From: Cupriavidus sp.
GTDB lineage: Bacteria; Pseudomonadota; Gammaproteobacteria; Burkholderiales; Burkholderiaceae
Direction: 5' to 3'
NCBI GenBank assembly: GCA_019236395.1
Contig: JAFAJB010000068.1
Span: 1 to 41,776 of the forward strand
Length of the DNA stretch: 41,776 nucleotides
Shown in pieces: positions 538 through 20,187 of this stretch. The notes below the pieces were generated by a model. That model saw nothing but the letters and a program-made list of their open reading frames with translations, was not told where the DNA came from and did not search any database. Within the stretch, counting starts at the first letter, position 1; the number at the start of each line of letters is the position of its first letter. Both the position numbers and the translations under genes were made by a program.

Positions 538-775
538 TGTCGTTGGCCGGGCTAGGGCGCTAGGTCCCCGCCCAGTGAGCTCAAATGCTGTGCTATCGGT
601 TTGCGGCACCCAACCACTCGACTGCTACTTCTGCTTTGGGTCGAGGCTGTGTGGAAACGTCTCTCGAATCGCACCAATGCGCGTCCCCTCCGGGGCGCAG
701 CCTGCCTTTCGAACTTTTGGCCAATCCGGTCGTGGACGACGTCGAAACGGGTGCGAACAGCGCTAGTGGGCCCCT

Positions 776-2109: not shown

Positions 2110-2120
2110 GGTCGGAAGCA

Positions 2121-2175
2121 GTAGTTCGACGCCGCAGCGGGCGGTCAACGGCCGATGAATTTCCGCGTTCGGCCA
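2121..2175 (+). repeat. Imperfect dispersed repeat, copy A
   Basis: The stretch starting GTAGTTCGACGCCGCAGCGG recurs in the same orientation at 3629-3682, with a few mismatches and indels and a shared end TCGGCCA. It lies just outside the right end of the IS1182-type element. I see no coding content; it looks like a decayed intergenic repeat. Confidence 0.6.
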
Positions 2176-2414
2176 CTTCCGGCCGCTGGTGCACCCTCCT
2201 ACTCGGACGTTTGAACGTCGGCTCTGCAGTCGTCGATCGACATTCGTCCGCCGGCGTGCTTAATTCAGCGACCTTGTTACTAGTCACCTTCATATTAAGT
2301 ACACCTGAGAACTCCTGCACGTCGTAGTCCTACGATGACTTCCTCGGTCACCTGCCAGTCATCGATGGTCCCGGGTTTTCGCGGCTTATCCATGCCTAAG
2401 TCGCTGACACTCCC

Positions 2415-3332
2415 TCATGACAATTTTCCAATCAATCTCTCAACAAATGGAATCTCGACTAGCGTCACGAACATCCAAACATAACACGCATAAATCACCA
2501 TAAAAATCAAGGATGATGTACTTACGGCAGCGACAACTCTACCTAAACTATTACGGTGCACCCAGTTTAAGAATATACAGTATTGTATTATCAGAAGGAT
2601 GATGATTGCAAATTCCATAATGAGCATCGGGACCACCAATATTCCTTTCTGAAAGTAAATTGGATATCGCAATGTTATGAATAGCGCCCACACTAAATAG
2701 TAGTATCCACTAAAATAAAGCGTCAGGTTGACTGTTGTCCTTCTCGGCACTGCACTTGGTTTGGAAACGGCATGATAGATAACCGCACTGAGAGCCATTG
2801 CCGGAAGCAACACCGCCTGTAGGACGCTTGAGAAAATGTGAATTTTTACGCCTTCTAATTCAATGGATTTAGAAAACGTCTTTGCGAGCGCTGGATCGAA
2901 TTTGGCGATGAAAATTGTTATATCCGAGTTTGATGTCGACCCGGCCAATGACGCGATTTGACTAGAGGAGCGCGAGATTCCCCTCCACAATATTTCGATG
3001 CGCGCATCTCGAATTGCATCGTCCGCAGAAAGCCCAAAGAGATCGAGAAAATGGACTTGATCACCTGTTGACATTTCGATAAACCCGTCGATCCACCCAG
3101 CTTTTTGCGACGAAGAGGGATTTAGTATGGATGCCGCGAAGCAGATAGTTAGGCCAATCGTAGCAACGGTCTTTGGCCCGAGACCGAATCGCCGATCGCC
3201 CCGCGCGAGTCTATCTGCAGTCGTTCTCGTCTGGGTTCCAATCAGGAAACATATCTTAAGGAAACGCAACACTGGGGCAGCTTTTCGCGACAATTCCGCG
3301 AACAAGTTACTGATCCACGCAGCAGTTTTCAT
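2415..3332 (-). CDS. Hypothetical multi-pass membrane protein
   Basis: The 305-residue product is not one I recognise. Hydrophobic stretches suggest about five membrane segments, near residues 54-71, 163-188, 201-222, 229-256 and 264-292. Between the first and second is a soluble region of about 90 residues (near 74-162), and residues 1-50 are basic and probably cytoplasmic. Base composition is clearly more AT-rich than in the neighbours, with many TTT, AAT and ATA codons, suggesting recent acquisition. No operon partner is visible. Coding is supported by a long open frame despite AT-rich DNA and by coherent hydrophobic segments. Defence-effector or toxin-like roles are possible for such orphan island membrane proteins but nothing in the sequence shows this. 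Confidence 0.65.
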   Translation of the reverse strand: MKTAAWISNLFAELSRKAAPVLRFLKICFLIGTQTRTTADRLARGDRRFGLGPKTVATIGLTICFAASILNPSSSQKAGWIDGFIEMSTGDQVHFLDLFGLSADDAIRDARIEILWRGISRSSSQIASLAGSTSNSDITIFIAKFDPALAKTFSKSIELEGVKIHIFSSVLQAVLLPAMALSAVIYHAVSKPSAVPRRTTVNLTLYFSGYYYLVWALFITLRYPIYFQKGILVVPMLIMEFAIIILLIIQYCIFLNWVHRNSLGRVVAAVSTSSLIFMVIYACYVWMFVTLVEIPFVERLIGKLS

Positions 3333-3628
3333 CTGGCGCTTACCTCAATAATATCGAACATGCTTTCATGCTAGGACAATGGCGGGGGCGTTGGCGAAGC
3401 GGATGGCGATTTCCTGCTGTCGCAGGCCGCAATCAGAACTGGGCTGCGACACGTTCTCCGTCCGGCACAAGAAGTGGTTTACGGGCCAGACGACTACACA
3501 TTCAAGGCTGCTGTACTCAGCACCTGCTATGGCAGATCTGCTGTCCCTGAACAGTCACGTTGGGCACCTGCTCCAAGCTGATAGCTGCCGTTGAACTACC
3601 GATTAGGCGAATGACAGCAACGGGAGCG

Positions 3629-3682
3629 GTAGTTCGACGCCGCAGCGGCGGTCGGCGACCGATGGAATTCCGAGATCGGCCA
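3629..3682 (+). repeat. Imperfect dispersed repeat, copy B
   Basis: This is the second copy of the element at 2121-2175, starting GTAGTTCGACGCCGCAGCGG and ending TCGGCCA, in the same orientation about 1.5 kb away. No coding function is evident. Confidence 0.6.
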
Positions 3683-4180
3683 GAAGCAGTCGGTCACATC
3701 TGTGTGAATAGCAGAATTAACCCTAAGCCAGCGTTCATGGTGGGGCCAAGCCAGGACGATCCAACCATTGCCTTTCCTGGCTGAGACTTCCTTTGCACGA
3801 TGTCCGATGGAATTAGTTGCGTTGCCTATTTTGACTCTAGTTGTCTCATATGGGACATCGAAGGGTTGTCGATACCCTTTTCCAACACCGCCTCAGACTA
3901 GGCTCGGCTTTTCAAGAATGCGGGCAAGGCACGGGACTGAGGCCTCTCCCTTGGCATTCACTAAGCCCGAGCCCCGTCGGTCAGCATCGGCATAGTCGCG
4001 ACTTCGCTCTAGCCACGGCGGCTTTCGAACGAGTCGCGTCCTCGCAGCTGTTACGCCGAAAAACATACAAAAGTCACTTGGAATCGTCCGCGCTGCGCAT
4101 ATGCAACTCACGCGGCACACAAAATTCGATGTGCGTTGACTGGACTTTTTATCATGTGCCGGAAAGGCCCCCGCCACAGG

Positions 4181-4200
4181 ACGGTTCGGATTAGAACCGT
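4181..4200. promoter_or_regulatory. Inverted repeat before the lipoprotein gene
   Basis: ACGGTTC-ggatta-GAACCGT is a perfect 7-bp inverted repeat with a 6-base spacer, 72 bases before the start codon at 4273. No U-run follows, so it is not a typical terminator. It could be an operator or a leader hairpin. Confidence 0.3.
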
Positions 4201-4272
4201 GCGGAAGCCCACACATGTCTTTCCGTGATGGTGTTACCAATTCGGCTGCGATAAGAAAAACGAGAGGGCCTC

Positions 4273-5577
4273 ATGAGCACAACGACGAGGATGCGTTGCA
4301 TGATGGGTATATCGTCAGCCGGGCTGCTTGCGGCATGTAACACCAATCCACCCTCCCCATTGACATCTGGATATGTGTCCGACCAGTGGTCTGCGCAGAT
4401 GTCGCAGTTTGCTATCGTTCCCGTGTTCCCGCCGCGAGCAGACCTCCAAGTAGGCGACCTATATCTATCTTGCGATGATTCCGCGCCGGCGGCTTCATCT
4501 GGCACCTCGACATCGTCGGTGTCTTCTTCAGTCAATCTCGACCACCATGTCATGTGGCTCGCGTCTTTGGATGGCATCGTTACGGCCACTTCAGGCCGGA
4601 CGACCATCCCTGGCATGCTGGACACCCAGTACATGAAGCGAGTCCATATGCCGGCCATCCCAATTTCGACTGCTCCAAGCCAGACCGCTACGCCACCGGC
4701 GTCCGCCTCTATCGCAGACCCTGCCTCAGCGACAAGGGCAAAGAAGGAAGCAAAGGTAGTAAAGAAGCCCGCATCCACGCCTGCGGCAAATGGCACGACG
4801 GCAGCCCCTGACGTCTTTCAGGCCGCCCCGCCGAAGGCGCTGATGCCGGTCTCCCTACCCGAGTTCTTCGCCGTATCCGCCACAAGTGCCCAAGCCCAGA
4901 CCCTCATCCCCTTCCCGAGCATTCTTGCGAAGGCAGGTATGAGCTATTCGAAAGCCCAGAACATTGAGATTACGGTTCCAGAAGCCGAATCCTATGGCTT
5001 GCCGGCAAGCATCATCTATAGGGCATATTTGACTCAGGCGAATTCACAAAACCTCCAGGACGCTTTCACAATCTTCAATACGGTAAAAGCGAAATTTTGT
5101 ACATACGGCACTCCTGCGATGGTGCTTGTCAATGAGGTCTACGCGACGAGAGCTATCAACGTGAGCGTAACATTTAGTCAGAATGCCTCCGGGGATGCCG
5201 CTGCCGGGCTTTCGTACCCACAAGGCTCAAGCCAAGCCGCTATTCTCAGCGCGTTGACTAAGTATCTTAGCCCGGCACCAGCAAGCGGTGCCAGCGCAGT
5301 GGATGCGCCTGCAGCACTCGTACCTGCGCCCGCGAACGGGGCATCGCCAACCATCGACCAGGCGACCGCGTATGTGGCACAACTGAACGCACTATACAAG
5401 TCGCTCAGTGGGAGCAGCGAAGCCCTGCAATACCCCGGCGTACAGGTGAGCTTTATCCATGGAAATGGGTCGGGAGTCGTGATGAATCGGCAATTCGAAT
5501 CCCCTATCGTCATTGGCTACAGAGGCCTAAGAGTTATTCCCATTGCGCCGTCGGTGGAACGGCAAGCGGAACGGTAG
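4273..5577 (+). CDS. Predicted lipoprotein of unknown function
   Basis: The 434-residue product starts with a lipoprotein signal: a short basic N-terminus, a hydrophobic stretch and a lipobox ending LLAAC, so Cys22 would be lipidated and the protein anchored in the envelope. GAGAGG lies seven bases before the ATG. Low-complexity Ala/Pro/Ser/Thr regions near residues 70-85, 130-185 and 335-365 look like linkers between folded parts, the clearest around residues 195-320. I recognise no domain. Small secreted or accessory-region lipoproteins of this kind are often lineage-specific. A 68-codon gene follows 63 bases downstream and may be co-transcribed. Base composition is lower in GC than the catabolic locus, consistent with the island. 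Confidence 0.6.
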   Translation: MSTTTRMRCMMGISSAGLLAACNTNPPSPLTSGYVSDQWSAQMSQFAIVPVFPPRADLQVGDLYLSCDDSAPAASSGTSTSSVSSSVNLDHHVMWLASLDGIVTATSGRTTIPGMLDTQYMKRVHMPAIPISTAPSQTATPPASASIADPASATRAKKEAKVVKKPASTPAANGTTAAPDVFQAAPPKALMPVSLPEFFAVSATSAQAQTLIPFPSILAKAGMSYSKAQNIEITVPEAESYGLPASIIYRAYLTQANSQNLQDAFTIFNTVKAKFCTYGTPAMVLVNEVYATRAINVSVTFSQNASGDAAAGLSYPQGSSQAAILSALTKYLSPAPASGASAVDAPAALVPAPANGASPTIDQATAYVAQLNALYKSLSGSSEALQYPGVQVSFIHGNGSGVVMNRQFESPIVIGYRGLRVIPIAPSVERQAER

Positions 5578-5640
5578 CCTCTTTAGTACGCGGTGCTGCG
5601 GCCGCTCTGCATCTGTCTTCCCCTATTACAGGAATTCATC

Positions 5641-5847
5641 ATGACAGCAAAACGTAATACCGAAGGTACTCTGAAAGACGGCCAACCGCCGGCAGCAGCA
5701 GGCACTGGACTTGATGACAATCAGGGACCTGTAGAGCCGACGATGCGAAAAGTAGAGGAAGACCCTATACCTGATGGCGGAGGAAGTGGTCTCGACCCGG
5801 TCCAGAACCATCCGCAACCGCTTTCACGAGAAAAGAAAGACCGATAA
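5641..5847 (+). CDS. Small hydrophilic protein, 68 residues
   Basis: The chosen ATG at 5641 has CAGGA nine bases upstream; the track's start at 5593 has no better support and would add an unlikely leader. The product is short, charged and rich in Gly, Pro, Asp and Lys (for example IPDGGGSGLDP), with no membrane segment, and is likely disordered. It follows the lipoprotein gene on the same strand with a 63-base gap. I do not recognise it. Small size and simple composition make the coding call moderate. Confidence 0.45.
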   Translation: MTAKRNTEGTLKDGQPPAAAGTGLDDNQGPVEPTMRKVEEDPIPDGGGSGLDPVQNHPQPLSREKKDR

Positions 5848-5992
5848 GCACTTCGGTCATGACGGACTGCGCTGACGACTTGCATCTTACTGCCCTGGCA
5901 ATTCCCACGAGAAAGTCCCCAGTCTGGTCCGTCCGTTAGATAACCCGAGTTACACCACAATTCAATTTTTCCGTAGATTTAGCGGAACCACA

Positions 5993-6202
5993 TTGTCGTT
6001 TCCGACAGCTCTGAGCAGTCTCTCCAAGTGGTCACATCCGCGCTGGAGTTTGGCCAAGTCTTCGCGAGCCGCGACGTTTCATGAGGCGTGCCGCGAGGTC
6101 GGCCTGACCTGGGATGACTATCCCTTCAATACGGACACATTGGCGCGCCAGTCGGTTCGGAAGCCCCCAGTCCTCACGATGTCATCATCTTTCGAAGTAT
6201 GA
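5993..6202 (+). pseudogene. Short ORF carrying a duplicated TnsB-like fragment
   Basis: This TTG-initiated 69-codon frame includes, in frame, 31 residues (from ATFHEACREVGLTWDDYPF on) identical to residues 153-183 of the transposase encoded at 7007-8950. Flanking residues have no counterpart in the transposase. The stop codon lies inside the palindrome at 6187-6218. No good ribosome-binding site is seen. It is most simply a fragment left by duplication or rearrangement, although expression as a small protein cannot be excluded. Confidence 0.5.
6070..6163 (+). repeat. 94-bp direct repeat, copy 1 (of transposase gene interior)
   Basis: The sequence from CGCGACGTTTCATGAGGCG to GTCGGTTCGGAAG is identical, base for base, to 7462-7555 inside the transposase gene. 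Sequence similarity stops sharply at both edges. The lack of any mismatch implies a recent event or ongoing conversion. Confidence 0.95.
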
Positions 6203-6218
6203 ACATACGACGAAAGAT
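6187..6218. promoter_or_regulatory. 32-bp palindrome, likely operator of the Xre-type regulator
   Basis: The arms ATCTTTCG/CGAAAGAT enclose a second pair GTATG/CATAC around a central AA, giving 13 paired positions of 16. An AT-rich ATATATATTC follows directly and could serve as a promoter -10 region. The site is 115 bases before the regulator start codon, a suitable place for autoregulation by a dimeric HTH protein. Binding is inferred from position only. Confidence 0.5.
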
Positions 6219-6333
6219 ATATATTCCGCGAAATGCTACAAACTGGGCCGCGCGTTGCTGGAGATCTTTGATTTGCGCAATCTCTCTCCAATTTCTACCA
6301 TACGGACATCTCCCTCGCATGTTGAGGTGATTT

Positions 6334-6768
6334 ATGCACCCCTTCGGGCGGACCGTCCGTGCGCTGCGCCGGGATCGTGGTCTCAGGCAGGCCGAGATTG
6401 CTGCACGTGTCTACTGCAGCCAGCAGAAGATTTCAGAGATCGAAGCCGGAAGAGCTCGACCTTCCCTCGCGTTCGCCCAGCGTCTGGCCCGCGCTCTGGA
6501 ACTGGTGCCTGAACAGGCCGCTGGCTTTTGGGAGGCGTTCGATCATTCACAGAGCGTCCTGAAGGTTCCGGAGGGTGCGTCCGAGGAGGTCTTTTATCTT
6601 GTGGCGGAACTCTCGCGCGGACTGCCATTCGCCTCGCCCGCATGCATTGAACTGCTACGGCAGACCCTGAGACTCTTTGCCGAAAGTGCACCCGAAGCAG
6701 CCAGGGACGCACCGGGCGAGACGTCTCGCAGACGGAGCGCCCGCATCGATGAGGAGGTTGCCATGTAG
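6334..6768 (+). CDS. Xre-family HTH regulator of the Tn7-like block
   Basis: The 144-residue product has a Cro/C1-type helix-turn-helix at about residues 5-60: GRTVRALRRDRGLRQAEIAA, then the recognition-helix region SQQKISEIEAGRARPSLAFA. This fold binds palindromic operators as a dimer. The C-terminal half has no recognisable domain. GAGGTG lies four bases before the ATG. The gene leads the same-strand series transposase, ATPase, TniQ-like, separated from the transposase by 238 bp of hairpin-rich sequence. Its place suggests control of transposition gene expression, with the 32-bp palindrome upstream as the probable target. Exact operator and effect are inferred. Confidence 0.85.
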   Translation: MHPFGRTVRALRRDRGLRQAEIAARVYCSQQKISEIEAGRARPSLAFAQRLARALELVPEQAAGFWEAFDHSQSVLKVPEGASEEVFYLVAELSRGLPFASPACIELLRQTLRLFAESAPEAARDAPGETSRRRSARIDEEVAM

Positions 6769-6779
6769 AAAAACGAAGA

Positions 6780-6799
6780 GGCAAGCCAGAAGGCTTGCC
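6780..6799 (-). terminator. Hairpin after the regulator gene
   Basis: GGCAAGCC-agaa-GGCTTGCC is a perfect 8-bp stem with a 4-base loop, 11 bases after the regulator stop codon. On the minus strand it is followed by TCTTCGTTTTT, so it fits an intrinsic terminator in that direction. On the plus strand there is no U-run, and it may act as an attenuator or 3' stabiliser. Confidence 0.5.
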
Positions 6800-6926
6800 C
6801 CTCGGCCCGATGGACGGGCAGTACTGCAACTCGCGCTTTCAGTATCGTCACGTCCCACGCCGCGGTCAATTCCTGATTCGTCACATTTGTTACGGCATCT
6901 GGCATGTCGGGGTCGTCTGCTTCCGT

Positions 6927-6949
6927 TTTACCGGGAGATCCCCGGTAAA
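6927..6949. promoter_or_regulatory. Perfect 9-bp inverted repeat in transposase leader
   Basis: TTTACCGGG-agatc-CCCGGTAAA lies 57 bases before the transposase start. It could be a protein-binding palindrome or, in RNA, a stable hairpin. No T-run follows on the plus strand. Confidence 0.5.
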
Positions 6950-6973
6950 TGCCACCGCGCCGTACCTAATGCG

Positions 6974-6994
6974 GCCCGGACGCGAAGTCCGGGC
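6974..6994 (+). promoter_or_regulatory. Leader hairpin just before the transposase ribosome-binding site
   Basis: GCCCGGAC-gcgaa-GTCCGGGC is a perfect 8-bp GC-rich stem ending 12 bases before the ATG, directly before the GGGAGAGG ribosome-binding region. A hairpin here could affect translation initiation of the transposase. The function is inferred from position. Confidence 0.5.
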
Positions 6995-7006
6995 GCAAGG
7001 GAGAGG

Positions 7007-8950
7007 ATGATGCCCAGAATCCGACGCCTATCGGCCGTGCACGCCGACAAGCTGGCCAACTGGCCAACGGTGGATCCCGCGGTGGTGCCTGCACGGGTGC
7101 GCAACGCCTTCGAGCGGCGGCGTCAGGCGGTCTTTCTGTACCTGAGAGGGGCCTCCGTTGCGCAGATTGCCCAGGAAACCGGCATTGACCGGTCGCAGGT
7201 GCTCAAGCTCGCTCAGCTCGCCACCACACCGCAAGCGGACGGTTCGATTCTGGGCGATGCGGCGCTCATCCCCTATCAAAAGCGCACGGCCCAACGCAAA
7301 TTGCCGCCACCGGACGGGCCGTTAGCGCAAGGCTTTGCGGGCGCCTTCCAGCAGTTGCTTGCCCGTCACCCGTGCATCCGTACGGCCATGGAGACGGTGC
7401 TGACCAGTACCGAAGGTGTGCTCCGGCCAGGCAGTGCGGAGGATCTCGCCGGAGAGGTGGTCGCGACGTTTCATGAGGCGTGCCGCGAGGTCGGCCTGAC
7501 CTGGGATGACTATCCCTTCAATACGGACACATTGGCGCGCCAGTCGGTTCGGAAGTTCACAAAGGATTACATCGCCGCACATCCCGAAAAAACTGTAAAA
7601 AACGTCTACGGCCACGACGCGGCCGTCCGCATGCATACCGGATCCGGTCGGGGCAAACCTGTGGTTGCGGTCTTCGAGCGTGCGGAAGCCGATGCGCATA
7701 AGCTCGACGTGAACTGCACGGTGCTGGTTCGCCACCCGAACGGTCAGTACGTGCCGCGCCGGCTGCGACGCATGTGGATCATTGTCCTGATCGAGGTGCG
7801 CTCGCGGGCCGTCCTGGGCTACTGCCTGTCCTTGGGGCGCGAGCCCTGCAAACAGGATCTGCTCGATGCGCTACACATGGCGTTGAGTCCATGGCAGCCC
7901 TGCAACTGGTTTGATCCCCATCTTCCGTACAGCGTGCACGCGGGATTTCCGAGCGTGCATCCGAATTACCTGCACCTGGGGTTTCGCGAACTGTCGGTTG
8001 ACAAGGCGCTGATGAATATTTCCAGCGATGTCAGCGACCGGCTACGCCAGTTGATGGATGCCCGGGTCATGAACGTCGATCAGGAGCGTCAAGTCAGCGG
8101 CCGTTCCAACCCGAACGATCGTCCCTACATCGAGGGGTTTTTCCGGTTGATTGAGGAGCGTGGCTTCCACAAGCTCAGGGCGACCACGGGCAGCCACCCG
8201 CGCGACCCGAAACGTGCCCGTGAGATTGACGTACGGACCGGCCGCCACGCACTGGACGTCCAGCATCTGCCAGCCCTGCTCGATCACGTCATATCCGAAT
8301 ACAACGGCGCGCCGCATGGTGGACTCGGGGACATCAGTCCGCTGGACTTCCTCGCGCAGATGGCTGCGCAGATTCACCCGCAATGTCGCACGCTGGAACA
8401 ACAGGATATCGATACGCTGCAGTTCGTTGTGGTCACCCGGCAGGTGCGCGGCAACATCGAAGAAGGCCGGCCTCCCTATGTCGATTACATCTACGGCCAC
8501 TACACCGGCGGACCTCTGGCGTTTGCCTACGCGCTCATCGGTCAGACCGTCCAGTTGCGGGTCAACGTGCAAGACGCCCGGTTTGGGCAACTCTTCAGCA
8601 TGCGGGGCGAATTCCTGGGCAGCGTCCACGCAAATCCGCCCTGGGATGAGATTCCGCATTCCCTGCGCTTGCGCAGCCTGATCTGCAAGGCTCGAAATGG
8701 CAGGCTACGCCACGAACTCGATGCGCCGAATCCCCTCCGTGCTTACGCCAAGCTGATCGAGCAGAACGTCGCGCTGGGTGGTCCCGTACTTGACGGCTAC
8801 CTGAGGCTGCAGCGCAGCATCATCCTGGGGGCGGGGCCGACGGGCCATGTAGCGTGTGGCCAGGGCGATCAAGGCGCGCCCCGGGAGGTCAAGCGCGATC
8901 TGCCACCCCTATTGCCGGCAGTGCAAGGAGGACGCGATGGAAGCAACTGA
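7007..8950 (+). CDS. DDE transposase of the TnsB/TniA/Mu group
   Basis: The protein (647 residues from the ATG at 7007; an ATG at 7010 is equally possible) should cut and join transposon ends. GGGAGAGG directly precedes these codons, whereas the track's earlier start would read through the hairpin region. Residues 36-70 resemble a helix-turn-helix (ASVAQIAQETGIDRSQVLKL). The rve-like catalytic core spans about 225-400, with candidate acidic residues Asp234 (KLDVN), Asp332 (SVDKA) and Glu376 (YIEGFF); a Mu-type C-terminal beta domain follows near 480-580. The end overlaps the ATPase gene by 14 bases, indicating a translationally coupled operon. No TnsA-like endonuclease is seen, so replicative, Tn5053/Mu-like movement is more likely. 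Residues 153-183 are duplicated upstream. Confidence 0.88.
   Translation: MMPRIRRLSAVHADKLANWPTVDPAVVPARVRNAFERRRQAVFLYLRGASVAQIAQETGIDRSQVLKLAQLATTPQADGSILGDAALIPYQKRTAQRKLPPPDGPLAQGFAGAFQQLLARHPCIRTAMETVLTSTEGVLRPGSAEDLAGEVVATFHEACREVGLTWDDYPFNTDTLARQSVRKFTKDYIAAHPEKTVKNVYGHDAAVRMHTGSGRGKPVVAVFERAEADAHKLDVNCTVLVRHPNGQYVPRRLRRMWIIVLIEVRSRAVLGYCLSLGREPCKQDLLDALHMALSPWQPCNWFDPHLPYSVHAGFPSVHPNYLHLGFRELSVDKALMNISSDVSDRLRQLMDARVMNVDQERQVSGRSNPNDRPYIEGFFRLIEERGFHKLRATTGSHPRDPKRAREIDVRTGRHALDVQHLPALLDHVISEYNGAPHGGLGDISPLDFLAQMAAQIHPQCRTLEQQDIDTLQFVVVTRQVRGNIEEGRPPYVDYIYGHYTGGPLAFAYALIGQTVQLRVNVQDARFGQLFSMRGEFLGSVHANPPWDEIPHSLRLRSLICKARNGRLRHELDAPNPLRAYAKLIEQNVALGGPVLDGYLRLQRSIILGAGPTGHVACGQGDQGAPREVKRDLPPLLPAVQGGRDGSN
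7462..7555 (+). repeat. 94-bp direct repeat, copy 2 (inside transposase gene)
   Basis: This segment encodes transposase residues 153-183, ahead of the catalytic core, and is the presumed source of the identical copy at 6070-6163. Confidence 0.95.
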
Positions 8951-9932
8951 TCCCGTGCATCCGCTGATATCCCGTGACTACGCGTTGCAAACGCCTTCGA
9001 TTGCGGAATTCGGCAAGACGATCCAACAGTGGGCAGCCGAACGTCTGCCCGGCGGGATCGTGACAGGCTACCCCCAAACCGGGAAAACCACCGCGATCAT
9101 TCATTGGGCGGGCCGGTTCCTGCGGGAGACGGAGGGGCGGACACTGCCCATCATCGTCATGACTGCACCGCCGCAGGGACTTACGTCAAGGGGCTTCTAC
9201 CAGCATCTGCTGCAGGCCGGCAAGCTCGGTCCATGGCAGTCCGGTACCGTCGGTCAACTCCTGCCGCGGCTTCAGGCCGGGATCGTGAAGCGCATCGTCA
9301 GTCACGACAGCCGATATATGGTCTTCTTGATCGACGAGGCGAACAATTTCAATCTGAAGTATTGGCAACTGCTGAAGGATTTGGAGAACCAACTGCTCAT
9401 GTACGAACAGTTGCGTCTGACTTTCATTGCAGTCGGCTCGTCCGAGCTCAAGGGCGCCCGCCGGACCCTATATACAGCGGCCGAGTGCGCGCTGACGGCC
9501 CGCTTCATGGTGCGACAGTTCGAGTTTCGGGGTGTGCTCAACGTCGAGGAGCTCCGCCACATCCTCTCTGGCTATGACATTACGCGCTGGCCGGCGCCTG
9601 ACGGGCTGACCTACACGGAGTACTTCCTGCCGCTGGCGTACTCGGAAGGCTTTCGCATGGCGCAGTACGCGCAGACGCTCTGGACGGTCTTCATGTCGTG
9701 CATGCCCGCCATGCGTGGCCAGGAGACTGTCGAGATCCCGATGGTCTTCATCGTCATCCTGGCCCATCACATCCTGCGAAATCTGTGCAATCTCGAACTG
9801 GCTGTGCGGACATCCGTCGCTCATCTGACGGCGCTACTGAAAGCCAGCGGGTTTCGTGAGCACATGGAAGTCCATCTGAAACTACAACGCCATGAACTGG
9901 ACGCAGTCGCGCAACCCGTCATGCCGGCGTGA
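8937..9932 (+). CDS. TnsC/TniB-like AAA ATPase
   Basis: The 331-residue product carries Walker A (GYPQTGKTT, residues 44-52) and Walker B (YMVFLIDEAN, Asp133-Glu134), followed by a sensor-like segment (FIAVGSSELKGAR). ATPases of this family link target selection by TniQ-type proteins to the DDE transposase and give target immunity. The ATG at 8937 has AAGGAG six bases upstream; the track's start at 8856 lies deep in the transposase gene. The gene overlaps the transposase end by 14 bases and the next gene starts close to its stop, so the three are one operon. Family level is firm; whether it is closer to TniB or TnsC cannot be told by eye. Confidence 0.88.
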   Translation: MEATDPVHPLISRDYALQTPSIAEFGKTIQQWAAERLPGGIVTGYPQTGKTTAIIHWAGRFLRETEGRTLPIIVMTAPPQGLTSRGFYQHLLQAGKLGPWQSGTVGQLLPRLQAGIVKRIVSHDSRYMVFLIDEANNFNLKYWQLLKDLENQLLMYEQLRLTFIAVGSSELKGARRTLYTAAECALTARFMVRQFEFRGVLNVEELRHILSGYDITRWPAPDGLTYTEYFLPLAYSEGFRMAQYAQTLWTVFMSCMPAMRGQETVEIPMVFIVILAHHILRNLCNLELAVRTSVAHLTALLKASGFREHMEVHLKLQRHELDAVAQPVMPA

Positions 9933-9945
9933 GTCACTCTGGTGG

Positions 9946-11655
9946 ATGATGCATCGCTTCATGGTGCTCAACTATCCGGGGCATCTCGATATCGCACGGT
10001 ATTTCGCCTCAAACCAGGGCACAAGGTCCCTGATCGACGTCTCGCTCTTGCGGGAAGGCCGTTGGCCGGGGCGGCCCCGGCTCGATTGGCGTCGGCTGTT
10101 CATCGCCAGCGGCGCGAGCGATAGGCCGCTGCATCCGCCGTTCTGGACGTTGCCGAGGATTCCATGTATGCGGACCGCCTGTGTCTGTTATCCGTGCATG
10201 GCTGCGGGATTTCACAGCGTATGGCTGGCAGGGCCATTTCTGCCGTGTTGCCCGATTCACGGATCGCCCATCATCGAGCGCTGCCCGGCGTGCGGTGGAA
10301 CGATTTCCGGTCGCCTGTCGATCTGGGCAGCCCATCATCCTGGTCACTGTGCTTGTGGCTGGCGCTTCATGTCGGTCACGCAGGCAGCTAGGGGCACGGA
10401 CCCCATTGATGGAATAGAACGCCTGGATGCATACGTGACGTGGCTGCACCAGCATCGTGAGGCGATTGCGCGGGCCTTGCCAGCGGGCGCCTCCCGCCGT
10501 GAGCTGCAGATGCCCGTATGGGCGAACATCAGACGGCGGTGGATACTGACCATGCCGGAGGAGCTCTCCGAGTTTCTGATGCGCAGCGTCACGCAGTCGG
10601 AGGCGCCGGTTGCCAGCATACTTGTCCCGAGGGCGCTGGATGCCCGAGCTGCCAGTCGAGCCTGGCGGTGCATTGGGGCGCCGGGAGACTGGATAGCCGA
10701 GTCTGGGCACATGGAGAATCCGGTGGCGGCAATGGCGCGAGAAGCTGCCGGGCGATGGATGCTGTCATGTGTGAAGTCGCTGCGGCGGCATGTGTGGGGA
10801 CGACATGGCCACGCGTTTGACCATCTGCCACGCGTCAATCATCCGCTTGCTGCGAACCGCTTCGAGACGGTGAACGCGCGGGAGTTCGCTTGGCAGCAAC
10901 ATGTTGCCAGATCAAGTTGGGACACCGACCTGATGGATCGCATCCTAGGGCGACTAGCCTCCGATATTCCGGGGGAGGCCGTTTCACGCGAGCGCGCGGG
11001 CTGGTATTGGCTGCGCCGGGCGGTGACCTTGCCGCAGCCCACCTTTGGCCCCACGTTAGTCGCCTGGCTGGTGCAGCATCTTGCTTGCGAAGTCGCGCTG
11101 GTGGCATTGGAGGAGGCGCTGCGTCGCGCGACTGGCATTGCACCACGGCCCACCCAGTTCGCATGGCGCCTAGAGCCACAGGCGACAGGGGAGCCTGCGC
11201 TCTTTGTGGACCGGGACCGTCGCCCCCTCTCACTGATGCGAGCACCCGAGGCAGCTAGACGCTGGCGATGCGTGCTATTGCCCGGTGCGATCTGGGCGGT
11301 TCGGCGAGGAAACTGCGGGGTGCCGTCTCGCATCTCGGGCACCATGCTGGCGGAATTGCCGGCGCGCTATGCCCGCCGTGCGTTTGCGCTGACCGGTCGC
11401 AGCACCGTACTGCAGTGCGCGGCGAGCGACCTCGAGGTCATCGGGGAGACCGTTGGGGAGGCCGCCCAGCTTCAGCGCGCGGTGTTGCGATACCACGCCA
11501 GGTTGATGCGCGCGCTGGATTACGCCATCCCTCCCAGTGGGGCGCAATTTCCGTTGGCCTGGTATCTCCCGGAGGACTCACTACACCCCCGTCATGAGGA
11601 GGCGCGCTACATGAACACGCGGCTCAAGCACCGCTCAGGCTTCTACGACGGGTGA
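9946..11655 (+). CDS. TniQ/TnsD-like target-selection protein
   Basis: The N-terminal third has the TniQ pattern of zinc-binding residues: CVCYPC, then LPCCPIHGSPIIERCPACGG, then HCACGW (roughly residues 79-138), resembling the CPxC...CxxH...CPxCG arrangement of the family. TniQ/TnsD proteins choose or recognise the insertion site and recruit the ATPase. The protein is about 569 residues from the ATG pair at 9946/9949 (GGTGG just upstream); the track's ATG at 9892 would overlap the ATPase gene by 41 bases and is also possible. The length suggests a C-terminal DNA-binding region, like TnsD rather than short TniQ. The stop lies eight bases from the convergent recombinase-like gene. No target gene was identified. 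Confidence 0.8.
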   Translation: MMHRFMVLNYPGHLDIARYFASNQGTRSLIDVSLLREGRWPGRPRLDWRRLFIASGASDRPLHPPFWTLPRIPCMRTACVCYPCMAAGFHSVWLAGPFLPCCPIHGSPIIERCPACGGTISGRLSIWAAHHPGHCACGWRFMSVTQAARGTDPIDGIERLDAYVTWLHQHREAIARALPAGASRRELQMPVWANIRRRWILTMPEELSEFLMRSVTQSEAPVASILVPRALDARAASRAWRCIGAPGDWIAESGHMENPVAAMAREAAGRWMLSCVKSLRRHVWGRHGHAFDHLPRVNHPLAANRFETVNAREFAWQQHVARSSWDTDLMDRILGRLASDIPGEAVSRERAGWYWLRRAVTLPQPTFGPTLVAWLVQHLACEVALVALEEALRRATGIAPRPTQFAWRLEPQATGEPALFVDRDRRPLSLMRAPEAARRWRCVLLPGAIWAVRRGNCGVPSRISGTMLAELPARYARRAFALTGRSTVLQCAASDLEVIGETVGEAAQLQRAVLRYHARLMRALDYAIPPSGAQFPLAWYLPEDSLHPRHEEARYMNTRLKHRSGFYDG

Positions 11656-11661
11656 CGTCGT
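11645..11661. terminator. Small stem between convergent ends
   Basis: ACGACG-ggtga-CGTCGT straddles the TniQ-like stop codon and the eight-base gap before the convergent gene's stop. The stem is only 6 bp with no clear U-run, so it is a weak candidate for a two-way terminator. Confidence 0.25.
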
Positions 11662-11663
11662 CG

Positions 11664-13706
11664 TTACGCTGAGTCGTGATCGACGCCAGAACCTGAGCCC
11701 CCAATACGCCAGTACAACTCCAACCCAGTTGGCGGATCTTCACCCTTGCGAATCCCGCGCGATGGCATACGGTTCAATCGGTTTGCCTCCGGGCTTTCGG
11801 AATCAAGCCGGTTTGCGCAGCGGCATAGAAACTGTTTGATCTGTCGATTCAGCGTGATGGGGCTCAAGGGCTGGTTGTCGGTGCGATGGACCACTTTCGC
11901 CCACGGTGCAAAGTCGCGTGGGGCGGCCCCAACAAACAGCAATTCGTCACGGCAAAGAGCGGGATCGTCAGGCAGGCCTCTCGCTTGAAGCGCCGTCTGC
12001 AGGGTCCCTGCAATCTTCTCGGAAATTTCGGAGAATCGCGGGACTCCATGCTTGCCGTGGACGGCGAGTATCCACTGTGGCGCATTACCTGGTGCGCGCT
12101 GCACACAGCGGACGTCTCCGACGCGCAAGGCAAGTGCTTGGGATAGCGGGATACCCGTTTCATACAACAGGGGCAGAAGCAGTTGCAACCGGCGGTTGAC
12201 GAGGGTGTCGGGCAAGGTCGCGAGGCAATCGGCAATGTGTGTCCATTCTGCTTCCGTCATTCGCGAAGCGGGAGGCTCCGGGGATTTGGGAGTGCGGCGC
12301 AGCAAGCCCTTCCAAGGGTTGCCGGCCATGTACCCGTTGTCATTGAGCCATGTGTAGAGGGCACAGAGCACCGTGATCGTAGTGCGCTGGGAGTGCTGAG
12401 TGAGTGGTCCCTGGAACGGCCGCCACAGCGGGGTCCAGCGCTCCCGCTGGCCAGGGCCGCACCAACTCGCAGGCGGGCTCGCGACAAAAGCCAGATATGT
12501 CACACAGTCGTCCAGCGCCATAGATGACAAGGCCTTCTGTCTCACGAGAATCGCCCAGAGAAGGAACCGTTCGGCCTCTTTCCGGTACGCGCGTTGCGTA
12601 TTTGAGGGATACAGCGCCCACTGCGTGGGGTCAGGCACCGTCGACAGGTCATTGTGGAACGCGTGTCGGCGTTGCAACTGTTCGGGGGAGATCGAACTCC
12701 GCGTGCCCAGCCAAAGCACGATCGCTTCCTTGTCGGTGACGGAAGGAATCTTGCATTGGCGCCTGGGGAGCCGAAATTTGCCGTCGTGCCCATCGAGTTC
12801 CATCGGGACAACGAGCCTCTCAAGAGGCACGAGTGCCGTAGCTGGGGCCACCATGCGTTCCCGCTCGTGTGCGTACTGGCGTTGTTTGGGAACCTCGGCT
12901 AGGGCCAGTATTGGCTTGCCGATCGTATCCGCGTGAGCGCGAAGAAATCCAATGATGGCCCTGGCTTTGCCGGCGCCGATGCCGGAAATGGAGCGATGCC
13001 AGCCCAGCCCCAGACCGTTGATCCGGTCGATCAGATCCGAGATCGTAACTATGTTGGCGACTTCCAGCCGATACGCCAAACTGTCTGACAGCCATGCGCC
13101 GCACGGATCCGAAGCCTTGACCCGTTGCACGTATCGGGCTTCCAGCCAGGCGATCGCCTTGAGTTGCAGATTCACCAGGGTTTGCCGTTTGGCCTCCAGA
13201 TCGGCAGCGACCCCATACCGTTCGCGGTAGGCCGCAAGTTGTTCTGCCTCGCTGAAGCCATCAAGGCCCTGTTGTGCCACAAACTCTTCCAGCGGCAACA
13301 AGCCGTCACTTCGAGGGGCAATCACCGAGAAATCCGACCTGATCAGCCGGATCATCCCGGGTCGCTGTGACCGACGAGCCGCACCGCAGATTTCTTGCCG
13401 TAGCCACGCCGTCGTGCGCTGTACAGTAGGATGCAGAGCAAACGCGTGAGGTTGGTCACCGGCGATACAAGTGTCCTTCGTGCGTCCTGTACCGGCGGCC
13501 GTGGCTGACTTGTAGATGTCCGTTTCGATCCGGCCTTCTTCCTGAAGGTAACGCTCCCACACGGAACGTGCGCACAGTCCCTGGACGATTGCACGGAAGA
13601 ATGCGAAATGCCCTCGGTGTAGCTGCCGCCTGGTCACCGCTCGTTTGCGGCTATCTGCGGGGCGCTTCTCAGCACCGACCTCAACCTCCGGTGAAAATCC
13701 TTCCAT
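11664..13706 (-). CDS. Tyrosine-recombinase-like protein with degenerate catalytic residues
   Basis: The 680-residue product resembles long phage-integrase-like proteins with an N-terminal DUF3701-type region (LHRGHFAFFRAIVQGL near the start, a SISGIGAGKARAIIGFL helix-hairpin-helix-like stretch), a SAM-like core-binding domain around 375-480 and a recombinase fold from about 490. The usual catalytic Arg of the GLRxSE motif is replaced in ETGIPLSQALAL (Pro520). The HxxRH box seems replaced by SRGIRKG (649-655), and no trailing GH...Y segment exists; the protein ends soon after. GGAG lies eight bases before the ATG. It converges on the Tn7-like operon. It is either a decayed integrase or a non-catalytic DNA-binding partner. 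Confidence 0.75.
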   Translation of the reverse strand: MEGFSPEVEVGAEKRPADSRKRAVTRRQLHRGHFAFFRAIVQGLCARSVWERYLQEEGRIETDIYKSATAAGTGRTKDTCIAGDQPHAFALHPTVQRTTAWLRQEICGAARRSQRPGMIRLIRSDFSVIAPRSDGLLPLEEFVAQQGLDGFSEAEQLAAYRERYGVAADLEAKRQTLVNLQLKAIAWLEARYVQRVKASDPCGAWLSDSLAYRLEVANIVTISDLIDRINGLGLGWHRSISGIGAGKARAIIGFLRAHADTIGKPILALAEVPKQRQYAHERERMVAPATALVPLERLVVPMELDGHDGKFRLPRRQCKIPSVTDKEAIVLWLGTRSSISPEQLQRRHAFHNDLSTVPDPTQWALYPSNTQRAYRKEAERFLLWAILVRQKALSSMALDDCVTYLAFVASPPASWCGPGQRERWTPLWRPFQGPLTQHSQRTTITVLCALYTWLNDNGYMAGNPWKGLLRRTPKSPEPPASRMTEAEWTHIADCLATLPDTLVNRRLQLLLPLLYETGIPLSQALALRVGDVRCVQRAPGNAPQWILAVHGKHGVPRFSEISEKIAGTLQTALQARGLPDDPALCRDELLFVGAAPRDFAPWAKVVHRTDNQPLSPITLNRQIKQFLCRCANRLDSESPEANRLNRMPSRGIRKGEDPPTGLELYWRIGGSGSGVDHDSA

Positions 13707-13867
13707 AACTGCACTCCATTATGCGCAGTGGCACGTGCGGTGAATTTATATGGATTAAAGTCGGGGTTTATTATTTTGTCTAGAATTAATCAGGTGTGGA
13801 TGGATCTGTGTGGTTAATTCAATGTGAGTGTGTTGAATATTGAGTTTGACCACAACGGGTTGCGGGT

Positions 13868-13909
13868 GACAAGTAACTTGTCTTTGATAATCAATGACTT
13901 AAGTTTGTC
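13868..13909. promoter_or_regulatory. Two related palindromes before the recombinase-like gene
   Basis: GACAAGT-a-ACTTGTC (13868-13882) is a perfect palindrome. GACTTAAGTTTGTC (13896-13909) is a looser one of the same type, 28 bases on. Further TTGTC words occur at 13776 and 13943. They could be operators or transposase-binding sites; both are inferences. Confidence 0.4.
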
Positions 13910-14845
13910 TTTATCGTCCGAGAAGTGCTGCTTGATGGGTAGTTGTCAAGATGCTATTTGTTGTGGATGAATTTTCTAATTCCTGCGACAGAAAACTTCT
14001 GGATCGAATCTGATCCGGCGTGTTTTGCATCACAAAGTGCAATGTAAATTATTTTTTGGTCGATGCAAAGCGAAGCGTTGCTTCGATTCAGTGTTCCTGC
14101 AGGCCTGGATGGCTTGGTCCCATGACGGGCAAACGATAGCCACTGGCAGAGCGACTTGCGGCCCGGGGCGCAACTGCAGGCCACCGCAGCGTTGTGAAAC
14201 AGGGGAGAGAGGCGCGCCAAGGCGCTCGCAGCAAGCGTCCGTCCCCGGATGCCACCCACGGCCGGAGCCCCCGTGACTGAGCGCAACAGTTCCAGTCAGC
14301 GTTGATTTTCAACGGGAAACCTACGCAGCATCGGGTACGCCGACATTTGAATCAGTACCAATTGTTCAGTGGGTCGTCCCTTCCCCTTCCTAATTCGAAA
14401 GAACGGCTCAACGCAATGGGCCAATGTTCATACCTCGCAGTCTTCAAACGCGTGAAGGAGTTGGTTCGCAGTTCGCGAACTGGAGCCTTGTGCGAGTCGA
14501 TGTTCAGGCGCCGCCGTACCGGGATGGTCGAATGTCATTATTACTGGTATCGCAACACGATCGATCGCGGGACGCGTGCGGTGGCGCAGACCGATGCACT
14601 CATGGAGAAATCTCCAAATATTCGTGTTCACAATCTGCGAACCAAGTCCCTGCGTGGTGCCCCACACCTTGGAGGCCGTCATGAACTTTAGTCCGACACG
14701 CTTCCCAACAATATGCGAACCAGACGCGCTCATGGCGACGAATTTTTACCGACGTCAACGCGGCTGCAGCCCTGGCGCGCACGCCTACTCCAGATGGTCG
14801 CTCGCTAGTCGCCTTCGATCTATCAGTCTTTGGGCAAATGGGATG

Positions 14846-14918: not shown

Positions 14919-15007
14919 TCAATACACGGGCTCCAGAAACCTTGCATCCTGAACCTCGAAACGCGTATCTCCGCCCTATACTGCTTGCAACAATAAGGAG
15001 GCGCGCC

Positions 15008-15520
15008 ATGAGCTCTCTCTTCTCGATCCCCCGTCTTGCACTGACTTGCGCAGCCTTTGGGGTGCTATGCGGCTGCTCGACCTTCGCGCCGCTGCAGACC
15101 GGACAAGCCACGATCGGTCAGCCAGGGTCTGCCGTGGAGGCCAAGCTCGGCAAGCCTGCCGAGCAGTATCCGTTGGCGGGCGGCGGAACCCGATGGCTAT
15201 ATCCGACCGGGCCGATGGGCCAGTACACGTATGCAGCGGATTTCGATGCAGGTGGCAACCTGAGTGCGTTCCACCAGGTTCTGACTTCCGCTGACTTCGC
15301 TCAGATCCAGCTTGGACGATCCACGCAGCAGGACGTACTGCAAACCTTCGGCAAGCCGGAGGCGATGACTTACTACCCGCTGAGCGATCGCAACGTATGG
15401 ACGTACCGTTTCCGCGCAGATGGCTGGTGGCCGTCGCTGATGAACGTCGCGTTCGATCGCAACAACATCGCGCGGGTGACGCAGGTCGTTCCCGATCCGT
15501 TGTTCGGCCTGTACAACTGA
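15008..15520 (+). CDS. BamE/SmpA-like outer-membrane lipoprotein
   Basis: The 170-residue product has a lipoprotein signal with lipobox VLCGC, so it is probably lipidated at Cys23 and sorted to the outer membrane. Two repeats resemble the SmpA/OmlA (BamE) fold, each with the motif of a short turn then GKP: GQPGSAVEAKLGKPAEQYPL and LGRSTQQDVLQTFGKPEAMT. AAGGAGG lies eight bases before the ATG at 15008, which fixes that start rather than the track's 14942. Its role is likely structural or chaperone-like in the envelope; it differs from canonical BamE, which is shorter and has one such unit. It marks the boundary between the accessory region and the catabolic locus. Confidence 0.75.
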   Translation: MSSLFSIPRLALTCAAFGVLCGCSTFAPLQTGQATIGQPGSAVEAKLGKPAEQYPLAGGGTRWLYPTGPMGQYTYAADFDAGGNLSAFHQVLTSADFAQIQLGRSTQQDVLQTFGKPEAMTYYPLSDRNVWTYRFRADGWWPSLMNVAFDRNNIARVTQVVPDPLFGLYN

Positions 15521-15575
15521 TCTACTGACGATCTCCGGCCAGCCGGGCCGGCCCGGTGTTGTTCGGGGGCGAAGG

Positions 15576-16613
15576 TTAGCGAGCGACCCCGGCAGCGTCC
15601 GGCGCGCTGGTCGAGCCACCGGCTTCGCGGCGCGTCGTCGATTCGCGCACGATAAGGCGGGGCTCAAGCATCGCGTAGCCGTCATCGGCATTGCCGTCGA
15701 GGATGTTCAGGAGCTTCTGCATCGCCAACTCGCCCATCCGCTCGCTCTGCAGATCCATCGTGGTGAGTGCGGGCGATGCATACTCGCCGTAGGGCACATT
15801 GTCGAAGCCCACAACCGAGACATCTTCCGGCAGGCGGCATCCCAGCGCGCGCGCCTCCTTCATGAAGCCAAGGGCGATCAGATCGTTGTAGCAGACCACT
15901 GCGTCCGGACGCCTGGGCCCGAGCACGATCGCCGAACAGGCGCGTTCACCGGCCTGGGCTGATGGCGCGTGTGCGTCATGGACTTCGATTTGCAGGCCAG
16001 CTTCCTCAAGGCACGCAGTGACGCCGCGGAGCCGCTCCGCGTTCCAGCGTGACTGGCCGAAGCCCAGGTATGCAATGCGACGGTGACCTTCGTTGAGCAG
16101 ATGGCGCGCGGCCATGTAGGCCGCGAGGTAACTGTCGGACCCGACGCTCGGAAACGGAAGGTGCCGCGAGCGTCCGAACAGCACCACCGGCTTGTTCAGC
16201 TCCAGCATCCATTGCGACGATTCCTCCTGCATCCGGGAGGTGATGATCAGGCCGTCCACCCGCTGAGCCAGGGCCTCGATGAGCTGCCGTTCGCGTGCCT
16301 GGTTTTCCTCCGTATCAACAAGCAGCAACGTGTAGTCCTGCTGCAGCGCGATCCGGTTTGCGCCCTTGACGATGTTGGTGAAGTGCGGATTGCGGATATC
16401 GAGCACGGCAAGCCCGATGGCGCGGGTCTTGCCGGTAATCATCGACCGTGCCAGCGGATTCGAGCGGTAGCCAAGTTGTTCGATCGCGGCCTTCAGCTTG
16501 GCTTCGACCGGCGCGGAGAAGCGCTGGGTCCCATTCATGAATTTCGAGACGGTGGCGACAGAGACACCTGCGGCCGCCGCAACGTCGCGAATGGTAGGAG
16601 AGTTTGTCTTCAT
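15576..16613 (-). CDS. LacI-family repressor of the uronate locus
   Basis: The 345-residue product has a LacI HTH at residues 7-53 (TIRDVAAAAGVSVATVSKFM, hinge NPLARSM) and a periplasmic-binding-protein-like sensor domain (AIGLAVLDIRNPHF, then DAVVCYNDLIALGF). Repressors of this family bind centrally CG-symmetric palindromes and release them on sugar or sugar-acid binding. The gene lies at the left end of the catabolic locus and has its own promoter: TATAAT on the minus strand (16706-16701) beside a GGAAATCGTTTTCT palindrome, implying autorepression. Similar palindromes stand before both operons of the locus. The inducer is probably a uronate, aldarate or a pathway intermediate; that is inferred. 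Confidence 0.92.
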   Translation of the reverse strand: MKTNSPTIRDVAAAAGVSVATVSKFMNGTQRFSAPVEAKLKAAIEQLGYRSNPLARSMITGKTRAIGLAVLDIRNPHFTNIVKGANRIALQQDYTLLLVDTEENQARERQLIEALAQRVDGLIITSRMQEESSQWMLELNKPVVLFGRSRHLPFPSVGSDSYLAAYMAARHLLNEGHRRIAYLGFGQSRWNAERLRGVTACLEEAGLQIEVHDAHAPSAQAGERACSAIVLGPRRPDAVVCYNDLIALGFMKEARALGCRLPEDVSVVGFDNVPYGEYASPALTTMDLQSERMGELAMQKLLNILDGNADDGYAMLEPRLIVRESTTRREAGGSTSAPDAAGVAR

Positions 16614-16700
16614 CTATGACCCTGTTGCTTGCTTCCGCATGCGGCCACCGGACCCGGCAGCCGTCGATGAGTGGGAATCCAGCAAGTCTGGAGTGGCGAA

Positions 16701-16723
16701 ATTATAGTTGGAAATCGTTTTCT
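16701..16723 (-). promoter_or_regulatory. LacI-type operator and -10 box of the repressor gene
   Basis: GGAAATCGTTTTCT (16710-16723) has the CG-centred palindromic form of LacI/PurR operators. Four bases away on the minus strand is a perfect TATAAT (+ strand ATTATA, 16701-16706), so the operator covers the spacer of the promoter. It lies 97 bases before the repressor start codon. Confidence 0.75.
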
Positions 16724-16747
16724 AACGCGGGCGGATGCTTGAATCGA

Positions 16748-17644
16748 TCAACCAAGCTCCAGGCGCATCGACAACGCGACCCGTTGCCCCGGCTGTGCCA
16801 CGTGGGCCGTGGGCGTCAAATGGCCCGCCAGGTGAGTGCATGGTTCGACACACACAAACGACTCGCCGGCCCGGTGATGTACGACCACATACCCGGCTTC
16901 CGGGCTCGACAGCTCGACGTACCGACGCGTCCCCGGATAGTCGATTCGTGCCGTGGCGCGATCCGTTTCGCAAAACCATGTGAAGGTGTCGCGTGGCAAC
17001 GCGTGGCGGCGCAAGGCAAACCTTAGCGGGCCGTCCAGCCGCCGTTGCAGGACGGGCAGGCCCTCCGACGCCGGGTTGCCGTGCCAGATGCTGCTGGCGG
17101 AAACGGTGGCCTCGGCACCCAGGCCAATCGGGAAGTAGGGGTGAAAACCGAGACCCAGCGGCATTGGTCGCGTCGACAGGTTGGTGACCTGCAACGCCAT
17201 GTCGATCCCGCCGCGATCTACACCGAAGTGCAGTTCCGCCCGCCAGGTCCATGGCCACACCTCGCTTTCGCCAACAAGCAGCGACATGACGCAATGCGAG
17301 CCGCTTGATTCATCGACCGACCACGCAAGCCGATGCCCCCATCCGTGGAGCCAGCCAGGAGAACCCGGTGGGGCAATCTCCACGTGCTCATCGCCCCATT
17401 TAAGCTGGTTGCCCTTGAATTTGTTGGTGAACGGCAGCATCGGAAAGCAGCCAGCCCGCTGCCATTGCGCGGAGTCGAAGCTTTCCGGGGCGAGCGGCAC
17501 CAGATAGTCGAAGGCACCATCCTCCGATACGCGGCGCAGGCGGCCAACCCGGCCCCCCAGCGCCGGGTACAGCTCAACCGCGACGGCACCGGCAGAAAGT
17601 GTCAACGGTGCCGGTGCCGTCGGCACTGCGCGTTCAGGCGACAT
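16748..17644 (-). CDS. Aldose 1-epimerase (mutarotase) family protein
   Basis: The product (298 residues from the ATG at 17644) has galactose mutarotase-like features: PMLPFTNKFKGNQLKWGDE near the N-terminus, catalytic-His candidates in GWLHGWGHRLAW and LGFHPYFP, and an acidic segment SFVCVEPCTHLAG near the C-terminus where the catalytic Glu is expected. It would interconvert alpha and beta anomers of the imported sugar or uronate, supplying the form used by the dehydrogenase. The start overlaps the stop of the upstream reductase gene by 11 bases, indicating coupled translation; the longer track ORF would extend into that gene. It ends the leftward operon. Confidence 0.8.
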   Translation of the reverse strand: MSPERAVPTAPAPLTLSAGAVAVELYPALGGRVGRLRRVSEDGAFDYLVPLAPESFDSAQWQRAGCFPMLPFTNKFKGNQLKWGDEHVEIAPPGSPGWLHGWGHRLAWSVDESSGSHCVMSLLVGESEVWPWTWRAELHFGVDRGGIDMALQVTNLSTRPMPLGLGFHPYFPIGLGAEATVSASSIWHGNPASEGLPVLQRRLDGPLRFALRRHALPRDTFTWFCETDRATARIDYPGTRRYVELSSPEAGYVVVHHRAGESFVCVEPCTHLAGHLTPTAHVAQPGQRVALSMRLELG

Positions 17645-18512: not shown

Positions 18513-18532
18513 GTTCGTATGTCCCGGGTGGA

Positions 18533-19795: not shown

Positions 19796-19939
19796 TCGGG
19801 TTCCTCTCAGGGCTATGTCGTTGTGTTGGCGCGCTCAGTCGCCTTGGAGAAGGCGGTGCACACGGCCGGGGCTCCGGTCATCCTGGCAGGCGTCTCTTCG
19901 TCTGCTAGGCAGAACAGGCGTCGGTGCCAAGAAAATATT

Positions 19940-19953
19940 GGATAACGTTTTCC
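19940..19953. promoter_or_regulatory. LacI-type operator of the leftward operon
   Basis: GGATAACGTTTTCC matches the GGAAAACGTTTTCC-type palindrome at 12 or more positions and lies 144 bases before the dehydratase gene. I see no strong core promoter by eye beside it. Confidence 0.7.
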
Positions 19954-20173: not shown

Positions 20174-20187
20174 GGAAAACGATTGAC
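20174..20187. promoter_or_regulatory. LacI-type operator overlapping the -35 box
   Basis: GGAAAACGATTGAC keeps the left half-site and CG centre of the palindrome, with a weaker right half. It overlaps the TTGACT -35 element of the rightward promoter. Its centre is 40 bases from the centre of the next operator, about four helical turns. Confidence 0.6.

Follow-up and report, generated by a model that had tools for sequence, protein, structure and literature searches.

The window, by which we mean the whole stretch of 41,776 nucleotides analysed here (contig C176 in a Cupriavidus-type assembly that is 54% complete), carries an Xre-tniABQ block that, judged from its sequence, is a TnsA-less Tn7/Tn5053-type transposition module, together with a convergent tyrosine recombinase (YR) gene whose product has, on alignment, truly lost catalysis. 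In our best explanation, which taken as a whole we consider evenly poised between right and wrong, the operon belongs to a group of TniABQ elements that hunt recombinase sites, and the dead YR is a plasmid-type protein lying in the insertion neighbourhood and not a core component of the transposon. The original prediction had proposed a distinct five-gene Tn7-like lineage; the observation behind it is sound and the lineage claim is not, and the more interesting result appears to lie in the homing of related elements to YR sites and in a dead YR adjacent to parB.

All five genes were found where they had been predicted, with Xre, tniA, tniB and tniQ on the forward strand and the YR converging on them from the reverse strand, the stops of tniQ and of the recombinase being separated by 8 bases. 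The block opens with an Xre-type regulator of 144 aa (6334-6768, +; HTH_31, Pfam E 4e-15), followed by a TniA/TnsB DDE transposase (about 7007-8950, +), the reading frame of which is open from 6677 but probably starts near 7007. The Pfam matches of TniA are to helix-turn-helix domains only; its family profile finds TnsB of the PDB TnsAB structure (E 1e-4), and its triad D229-D332-E376, read from conserved alignment columns in which D-D-E is invariant in the family, is intact. The TniB/TnsC AAA+ ATPase (8937-9932, +) has Walker A and B motifs and matches Pfam TniB and AAA_22 as well as TnsC in the PDB. The TniQ/TnsD-type protein (9892-11655, +), of 587 aa with zinc motifs and a long C-terminal part, has no Pfam match when searched alone, and its alignment finds solved TniQ/TnsD chains (E 2e-5). 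As predicted, no TnsA homologue is present in the block, and no serine resolvase was seen among the block ORFs and Pfam matches examined. By these matches the operon looks genuine and appears intact. Upstream of Xre lie a near-palindrome, ATCTTTCGaaGTATGaacATACgaCGAAAGAT (6187-6218), which is a candidate operator, and a 94-bp perfect duplicate (6070-6163, +) of a tniA-internal piece (7462-7555) that marks the left flank as rearranged; an interrupted IS1182-family insertion sequence, 95% identical to Cupriavidus plasmid copies, occupies positions 642-2110.

The recombinase gene (11664-13706, -), encoding 680 aa, matches DUF3701 (PF12482, E 1e-18) and, weakly, Phage_integrase. DUF3701, which contains a helix-hairpin-helix motif, is characteristic of the TnpR/Tn4401 subgroup of tyrosine recombinases (PMC8138268), and by domain content and alignment the window YR is a plasmid-type member of this subgroup. 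Its 12 close relatives, 47-50% identical and located on Cupriavidus plasmids, carry the full R-K-H-R-H-Y set, with the exception of one that has a broken frame and is ambiguous. Aligned with 50 relatives, the window protein shows P in place of the first catalytic R, retains K and has R for the box-II H, so that it reads P-K-R-R and then ends. Homology breaks off at 11799, which removes the C-terminal H and Y: some 75 residues at the end, including the HxxR...H...Y part, are missing, and the final 135 bp of the ORF (11664-11799, -) are unrelated to any YR. The predicted inactivity of the recombinase-like partner is borne out by these replacements. In the AlphaFold2 model the core-binding domain is confidently predicted, the catalytic domain is partial and the tail is disordered; within an XerH/Cre-type fold the best match is XerH. 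No tni genes occur within about 8 kb of the 12 close relatives, and essentially no dif-like palindrome lies beside them; a more distant relative, L132, has a 27% TniA-like match nearby. We rejected the possibility that the tni element had inserted into the recombinase gene and left its 3' half on the far side, since no C-terminal remnant occurs anywhere in the window.

In order to distinguish debris from a protein that is kept, residue retention was scored at positions invariant in the plasmid clade, for the window protein and for outgroups. The window YR keeps 50 of 63 such residues in the N-terminal part (outgroups 38-42), 37 of 48 in the DUF3701 part (24-31) and 51 of 63 in the core-binding part (43-48), whereas it keeps fewer than the outgroups in the catalytic part (27/49 versus 35-43) and at the catalytic end (7/34 versus 27-30). 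On a fixed tree, the window branch measures 0.79 substitutions per site for the N-terminal half, 0.76 for the core-binding domain and 1.97 for the catalytic domain, the last being about 2.5 times the figure for the N-terminal half, and no stop or frameshift interrupts the 680 codons. So much additional change in an open frame argues that the protein may still be made and used without catalysis, and the window recombinase probably persists as a non-catalytic DNA-binding protein and not as debris.

Simple local decay, in which a plasmid-type recombinase gene lost its 3' end to an insertion or a rearrangement and what is left drifts as a functionless remnant, is an unlikely alternative. It accounts for the sharp homology stop, for a tail that ends next to the tniQ stop, for the lack of a C-terminal remnant elsewhere in the window, for the catalytic homologues found at comparable places and for a neighbourhood rearranged around the tniA duplicate and the IS1182 remnant; the core-binding part, somewhat fast when measured as a share of tree length, also speaks for it. 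Relaxed catalysis with retention of the protein nevertheless fits better with a catalytic domain that has changed about twice as much as expected in a gene with an uninterrupted frame and a conserved N-terminal half.

The right-hand part of the window places the block in a chromid context. On the chromid of CH34 and on 21 other Cupriavidus chromids, the origin consists of repA-parA-parB followed by a convergent DUF3701 gene, and this gene lacks the catalytic C-terminus (His/Tyr) in 22 of 22 cases (e.g. L085:4514-6094, L088:7231-8838, L136-L155). A conserved AT-rich motif (..TGCAATGTAAATTATTTT) upstream of this dead YR is found in 17 of the 22 and is retained in the window at 14024-14058; it often has an imperfect inverted repeat with a 6-bp spacer and is a candidate binding site. 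Chromid homology begins at exactly 13988, in a segment that includes the motif (13988-14119, 83% to L136), and is found again at 34391-40787 (83-85% to L136), while inside this backbone lies an island of about 18 kb for sugar-acid catabolism and ABC transport (14956-32952), 82-86% identical to C. basilensis plasmid pRK1-2. By this homology, the window is located at a Cupriavidus chromid origin. To the left of 13988, the plasmid-type dead recombinase and tniABQ stand in place of the native YR-parB-parA-repA, and between the recombinase and the breakpoint there is an AT-rich (40% GC) non-coding stretch (13707-13987) that has no copy elsewhere and is a possible right end of the element. The chromid repA, parB and native YR are absent from the assembly, which is 54% complete. 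An orthology of the window recombinase with the native dead YR of the chromid was rejected, as the two are just 28% identical.

Using a profile-based scan of the genomes of about 85,000 species, we took the 80 best TniA relatives, none of which exceeds 35% identity; overall, the best relatives of the window TniA are about 33-36% identical to it. TnsA is missing from 53 of these 80 operons and its absence is therefore ordinary; Xre adjoins tniA in none of the 80 loci, and a YR lies within 1 kb of the operon in 14, leaving 66 with none that near. YR density is 0.102 per kb within 1 kb of the operons versus 0.010 per kb at 4-8 kb, a tenfold difference (binomial p 4e-5, or 1e-3 once near-identical loci are dropped). 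YRs really cluster at TniABQ operons, without any five-gene lineage in these data. Their orientation relative to the operon is variable, the convergent tniQ-recombinase arrangement being found also in L217, L221 and L231. Wherever an adjacent YR is of sufficient length to be assessed, its catalytic set is complete, with the sole clear exception of L221 from Polaromonas; L171, L184 and a few more, being truncated or having a broken frame, stand outside this tally. In L221 (12734-13975), a second and unrelated dead YR (S-R-H-R-E-F) abuts tniQ in convergent orientation; L232 has a near-identical element, but this YR was not seen there downstream of tniQ. YRs in TnsA-less Tn7-like elements have been read as resolvases encoded by the element (Benler 2021, PMC8649781), whereas here the YRs lie outside the elements whose ends are readable. 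A role of the adjacent YR as a resolvase that replaces TnsA was also rejected on the numbers, 10 of 53 TnsA-less operons versus 4 of 27 others, which is no enrichment.

The ends of related elements were read by comparing near-identical copies. On C. necator N-1 pBB2, the first element begins with a terminal CGTTAGTTTGCACAATTTTG at about 2881, ends with ..CAAACCAACG at about 7721 and has no cargo; it is present elsewhere, in C. yeoncheonensis (L193), without an adjoining recombinase gene, and the recombinase is therefore outside the element, as it is wherever the ends of relatives are readable. On pBB2 (L012:2881-12890), two TniABQ elements with 85% identical DNA stand in tandem at one recombinase site. 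An empty site in C. oxalaticus (L244) reads recombinase(-) - AGACATAAGCGCAGTTATGTCT - DNA-binding gene(+), and its palindrome, CATAA-N6-TTATG, resembles the dif core site. In about nine lineages with differing terminal repeats, the tniQ-side end, which terminates in CG, is separated by 37-45 bp from a dif-like palindrome; the gaps, counted by eye from the sequences, are 37 bp in L193 and L195/L055, 39 bp in L159, L181 and L194, 41 bp in L171, L174 and L187, 43 bp in L170, about 44 bp in L189 and about 45 bp in L190. Their hosts include Methylococcales, Zoogloea, Cupriavidus, Caballeronia and Piscinibacter, among others. Within 300 bp after tniQ we counted 9 dif-like palindromes versus 0.64 expected (p 3e-8; the data that revealed the pattern also served to test it), and none within 2.4 kb upstream of the related operons; the 9 come from 69 loci with tniQ, so that the rule is not seen for most. 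In several plasmids the palindromes sit just upstream of YR start codons. These palindromes may be recombinase sites to which the recombinase binds, and their spacing suggests that related TniABQ elements hunt YR sites as landing pads. In a literature search that covered mainly papers available without subscription, we found no published description of YR-site hunting by such elements. In L056 (13975-14607) and L194 (12286-12918), the interval separating tniQ from the right end contains, on the minus strand, a YR gene fragment (39 aa, 87% identical to a Robbsia YR).

In our best explanation, the window module would belong to these compact elements, organised LE-tniA-tniB-tniQ-RE and inserting 37-45 bp from palindromes that resemble YR core sites. 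TniQ, probably together with a recombinase bound at the palindrome, would mark the target, TniB/TnsC would relay the signal and TniA/TnsB would join the ends; without TnsA the product should be a cointegrate, which a nearby active YR or RecA could resolve. The window YR would be kept for DNA binding without catalysis, much as a different dead YR is conserved beside parB on other chromids. Against this explanation, no end resembling those of the relatives rises above chance in the window element, whose own target is therefore no more than suggested; its recombinase is not the native dead YR of the chromid, and palindrome binding by a neighbouring YR is deduced. When 5850-7010 was compared with 11600-11830, and 1-7010 with 13700-13995, terminal inverted repeats were at shuffle level or one above, and the end profile of the relatives, scanned over the window, stayed below the 95% limit of the shuffles. 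The boundaries could be read in near-identical relatives, but no canonical ends were found for the window element. The suggested link between the recombinase and target choice persists in altered form: in related elements it is a YR site, and not a captured recombinase, that appears to mark the insertion point.

The dead recombinase could instead lie inside the element, flanked by tniQ and a right end near 13987, and could serve as a target adaptor carried by the element itself, binding recombinase sites and recruiting TniQ in an independent re-invention of TnsF; we consider this improbable, to much the same degree as decay. If the right end at 13987 is real, the dead recombinase is inside the element and the adaptor idea holds for this single element. 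Between the breakpoint at 13988 and the chromid motif (14023 by the 8-bp arms) there are 35 bp, which is near the 37-45 bp of the relatives, and tniQ is on the side that the rule predicts; the catalytic domain, which has evolved at about 2.5 times the rate of the N-terminal half in an open frame, and the AlphaFold2 model, with its good core-binding domain, partial catalytic domain, disordered tail and XerH as best fold, as for TnsF (PMC10293859), would suit an adaptor, and some related elements (L056/L194) have a YR fragment in the corresponding position. On the other side, no second case combines this arrangement with a dead YR of the window type, neither a right end at 13987 nor a left end is recognisable, the chromid motif is an imperfect palindrome and not universal, the left flank differs from the chromid YR-parB that would be expected, and the spacing rule was brought to bear on the window only afterwards. 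In its most specific form, a TniABQ element of the YR-site-hunting group would have acquired a DUF3701 recombinase and abolished its catalytic activity, and would retain the gene, placed between tniQ and the right end, as the source of its own target adaptor, an independent counterpart of TnsF; this is slightly less probable still.

An assembly artefact at the tniABQ-recombinase junction, or in other parts of the contig, is very unlikely: the source assembly (G000) is incomplete and metagenome-like, with 259 contigs and without the chromid repA, parB and native YR, and the contig contains a 94-bp exact repeat, but no repeat is present at the tniQ-recombinase junction, the convergent arrangement recurs in three other loci and the right flank is colinear with chromids. 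The five-gene lineage with a conserved non-catalytic recombinase, which the gene content of the window alone would suggest, is hardly credible, given that the same genes in the same order gave no second example in the best 80 operons of the scan or in 399 genomes of the family and that adjacent recombinases are nearly all catalytic. Both observations that the original prediction had named as counting against it were made: most homologous operons have no recombinase within 1 kb, and the full-length recombinases beside related operons, L221 apart, are catalytic.

Among known systems, Tn5053/Tn402 share with the window a single tniA-tniB-tniQ operon without TnsA, and with its relatives the insertion at a fixed place beside the site of a site-specific recombinase on plasmids. 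Their members carry the serine resolvase tniR with res, mer or integron cargo, 25-bp terminal inverted repeats and a 5-bp target duplication; no tniR was seen among the ORFs and Pfam matches examined, no such cargo was seen, and no terminal repeats above chance were found in the window. Their sequences are very distant from the window element. According to later accounts of Minakhina 1999 (cited in PMC7765201, PMC8649781 and PMC11406308), Tn5053/Tn402 hunt res sites bound by serine resolvases, whereas the site used by the relatives of the window element is dif-like and of YR type. Tn7 proper has the TnsA endonuclease that the window block lacks. Tn6022 with TnsF (and Tsy) resembles the window in that a TniQ-linked element stands beside a protein with an inactivated YR domain and a partial catalytic domain, TnsF having likewise XerH as its best PDB fold match (PMC10293859). 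However, TnsF is operonic with a short tniQ and has N-terminal zinc fingers, while the window YR is convergent, of DUF3701 type, with no CxxC pairs seen in its N-terminal sequence and next to a long TniQ (587 aa); Tn6022 moreover has TnsA and TnsE and targets comM, unlike the window element with no TnsA and a chromid-origin location. The DUF3701 recombinases of the TnpR/Tn4401 subgroup share with the window YR the DUF3701 domain with its helix-hairpin-helix region and the core-binding domain, but they are catalytic where the window YR has lost R, H, H and Y. MrpR and SroF, in which a recombinase fold occurs without catalysis, are comparable as recombinase-fold DNA-binding proteins (weak fold matches), but they are phage regulators with no DUF3701 and no transposon context.

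If true, YR-site homing at a fixed distance by a TniABQ group that is large and poor in cargo would mean that both recombinase superfamilies, and not just that of the serine resolvases, have their sites hunted in this way, would explain the recurrent YRs beside TnsA-less Tn7-like operons and would give a natural intermediate towards recombinase-derived target selectors such as TnsF. For Cupriavidus itself, the dead recombinase that stands beside parB on every chromid examined is a backbone gene of these secondary chromosomes.
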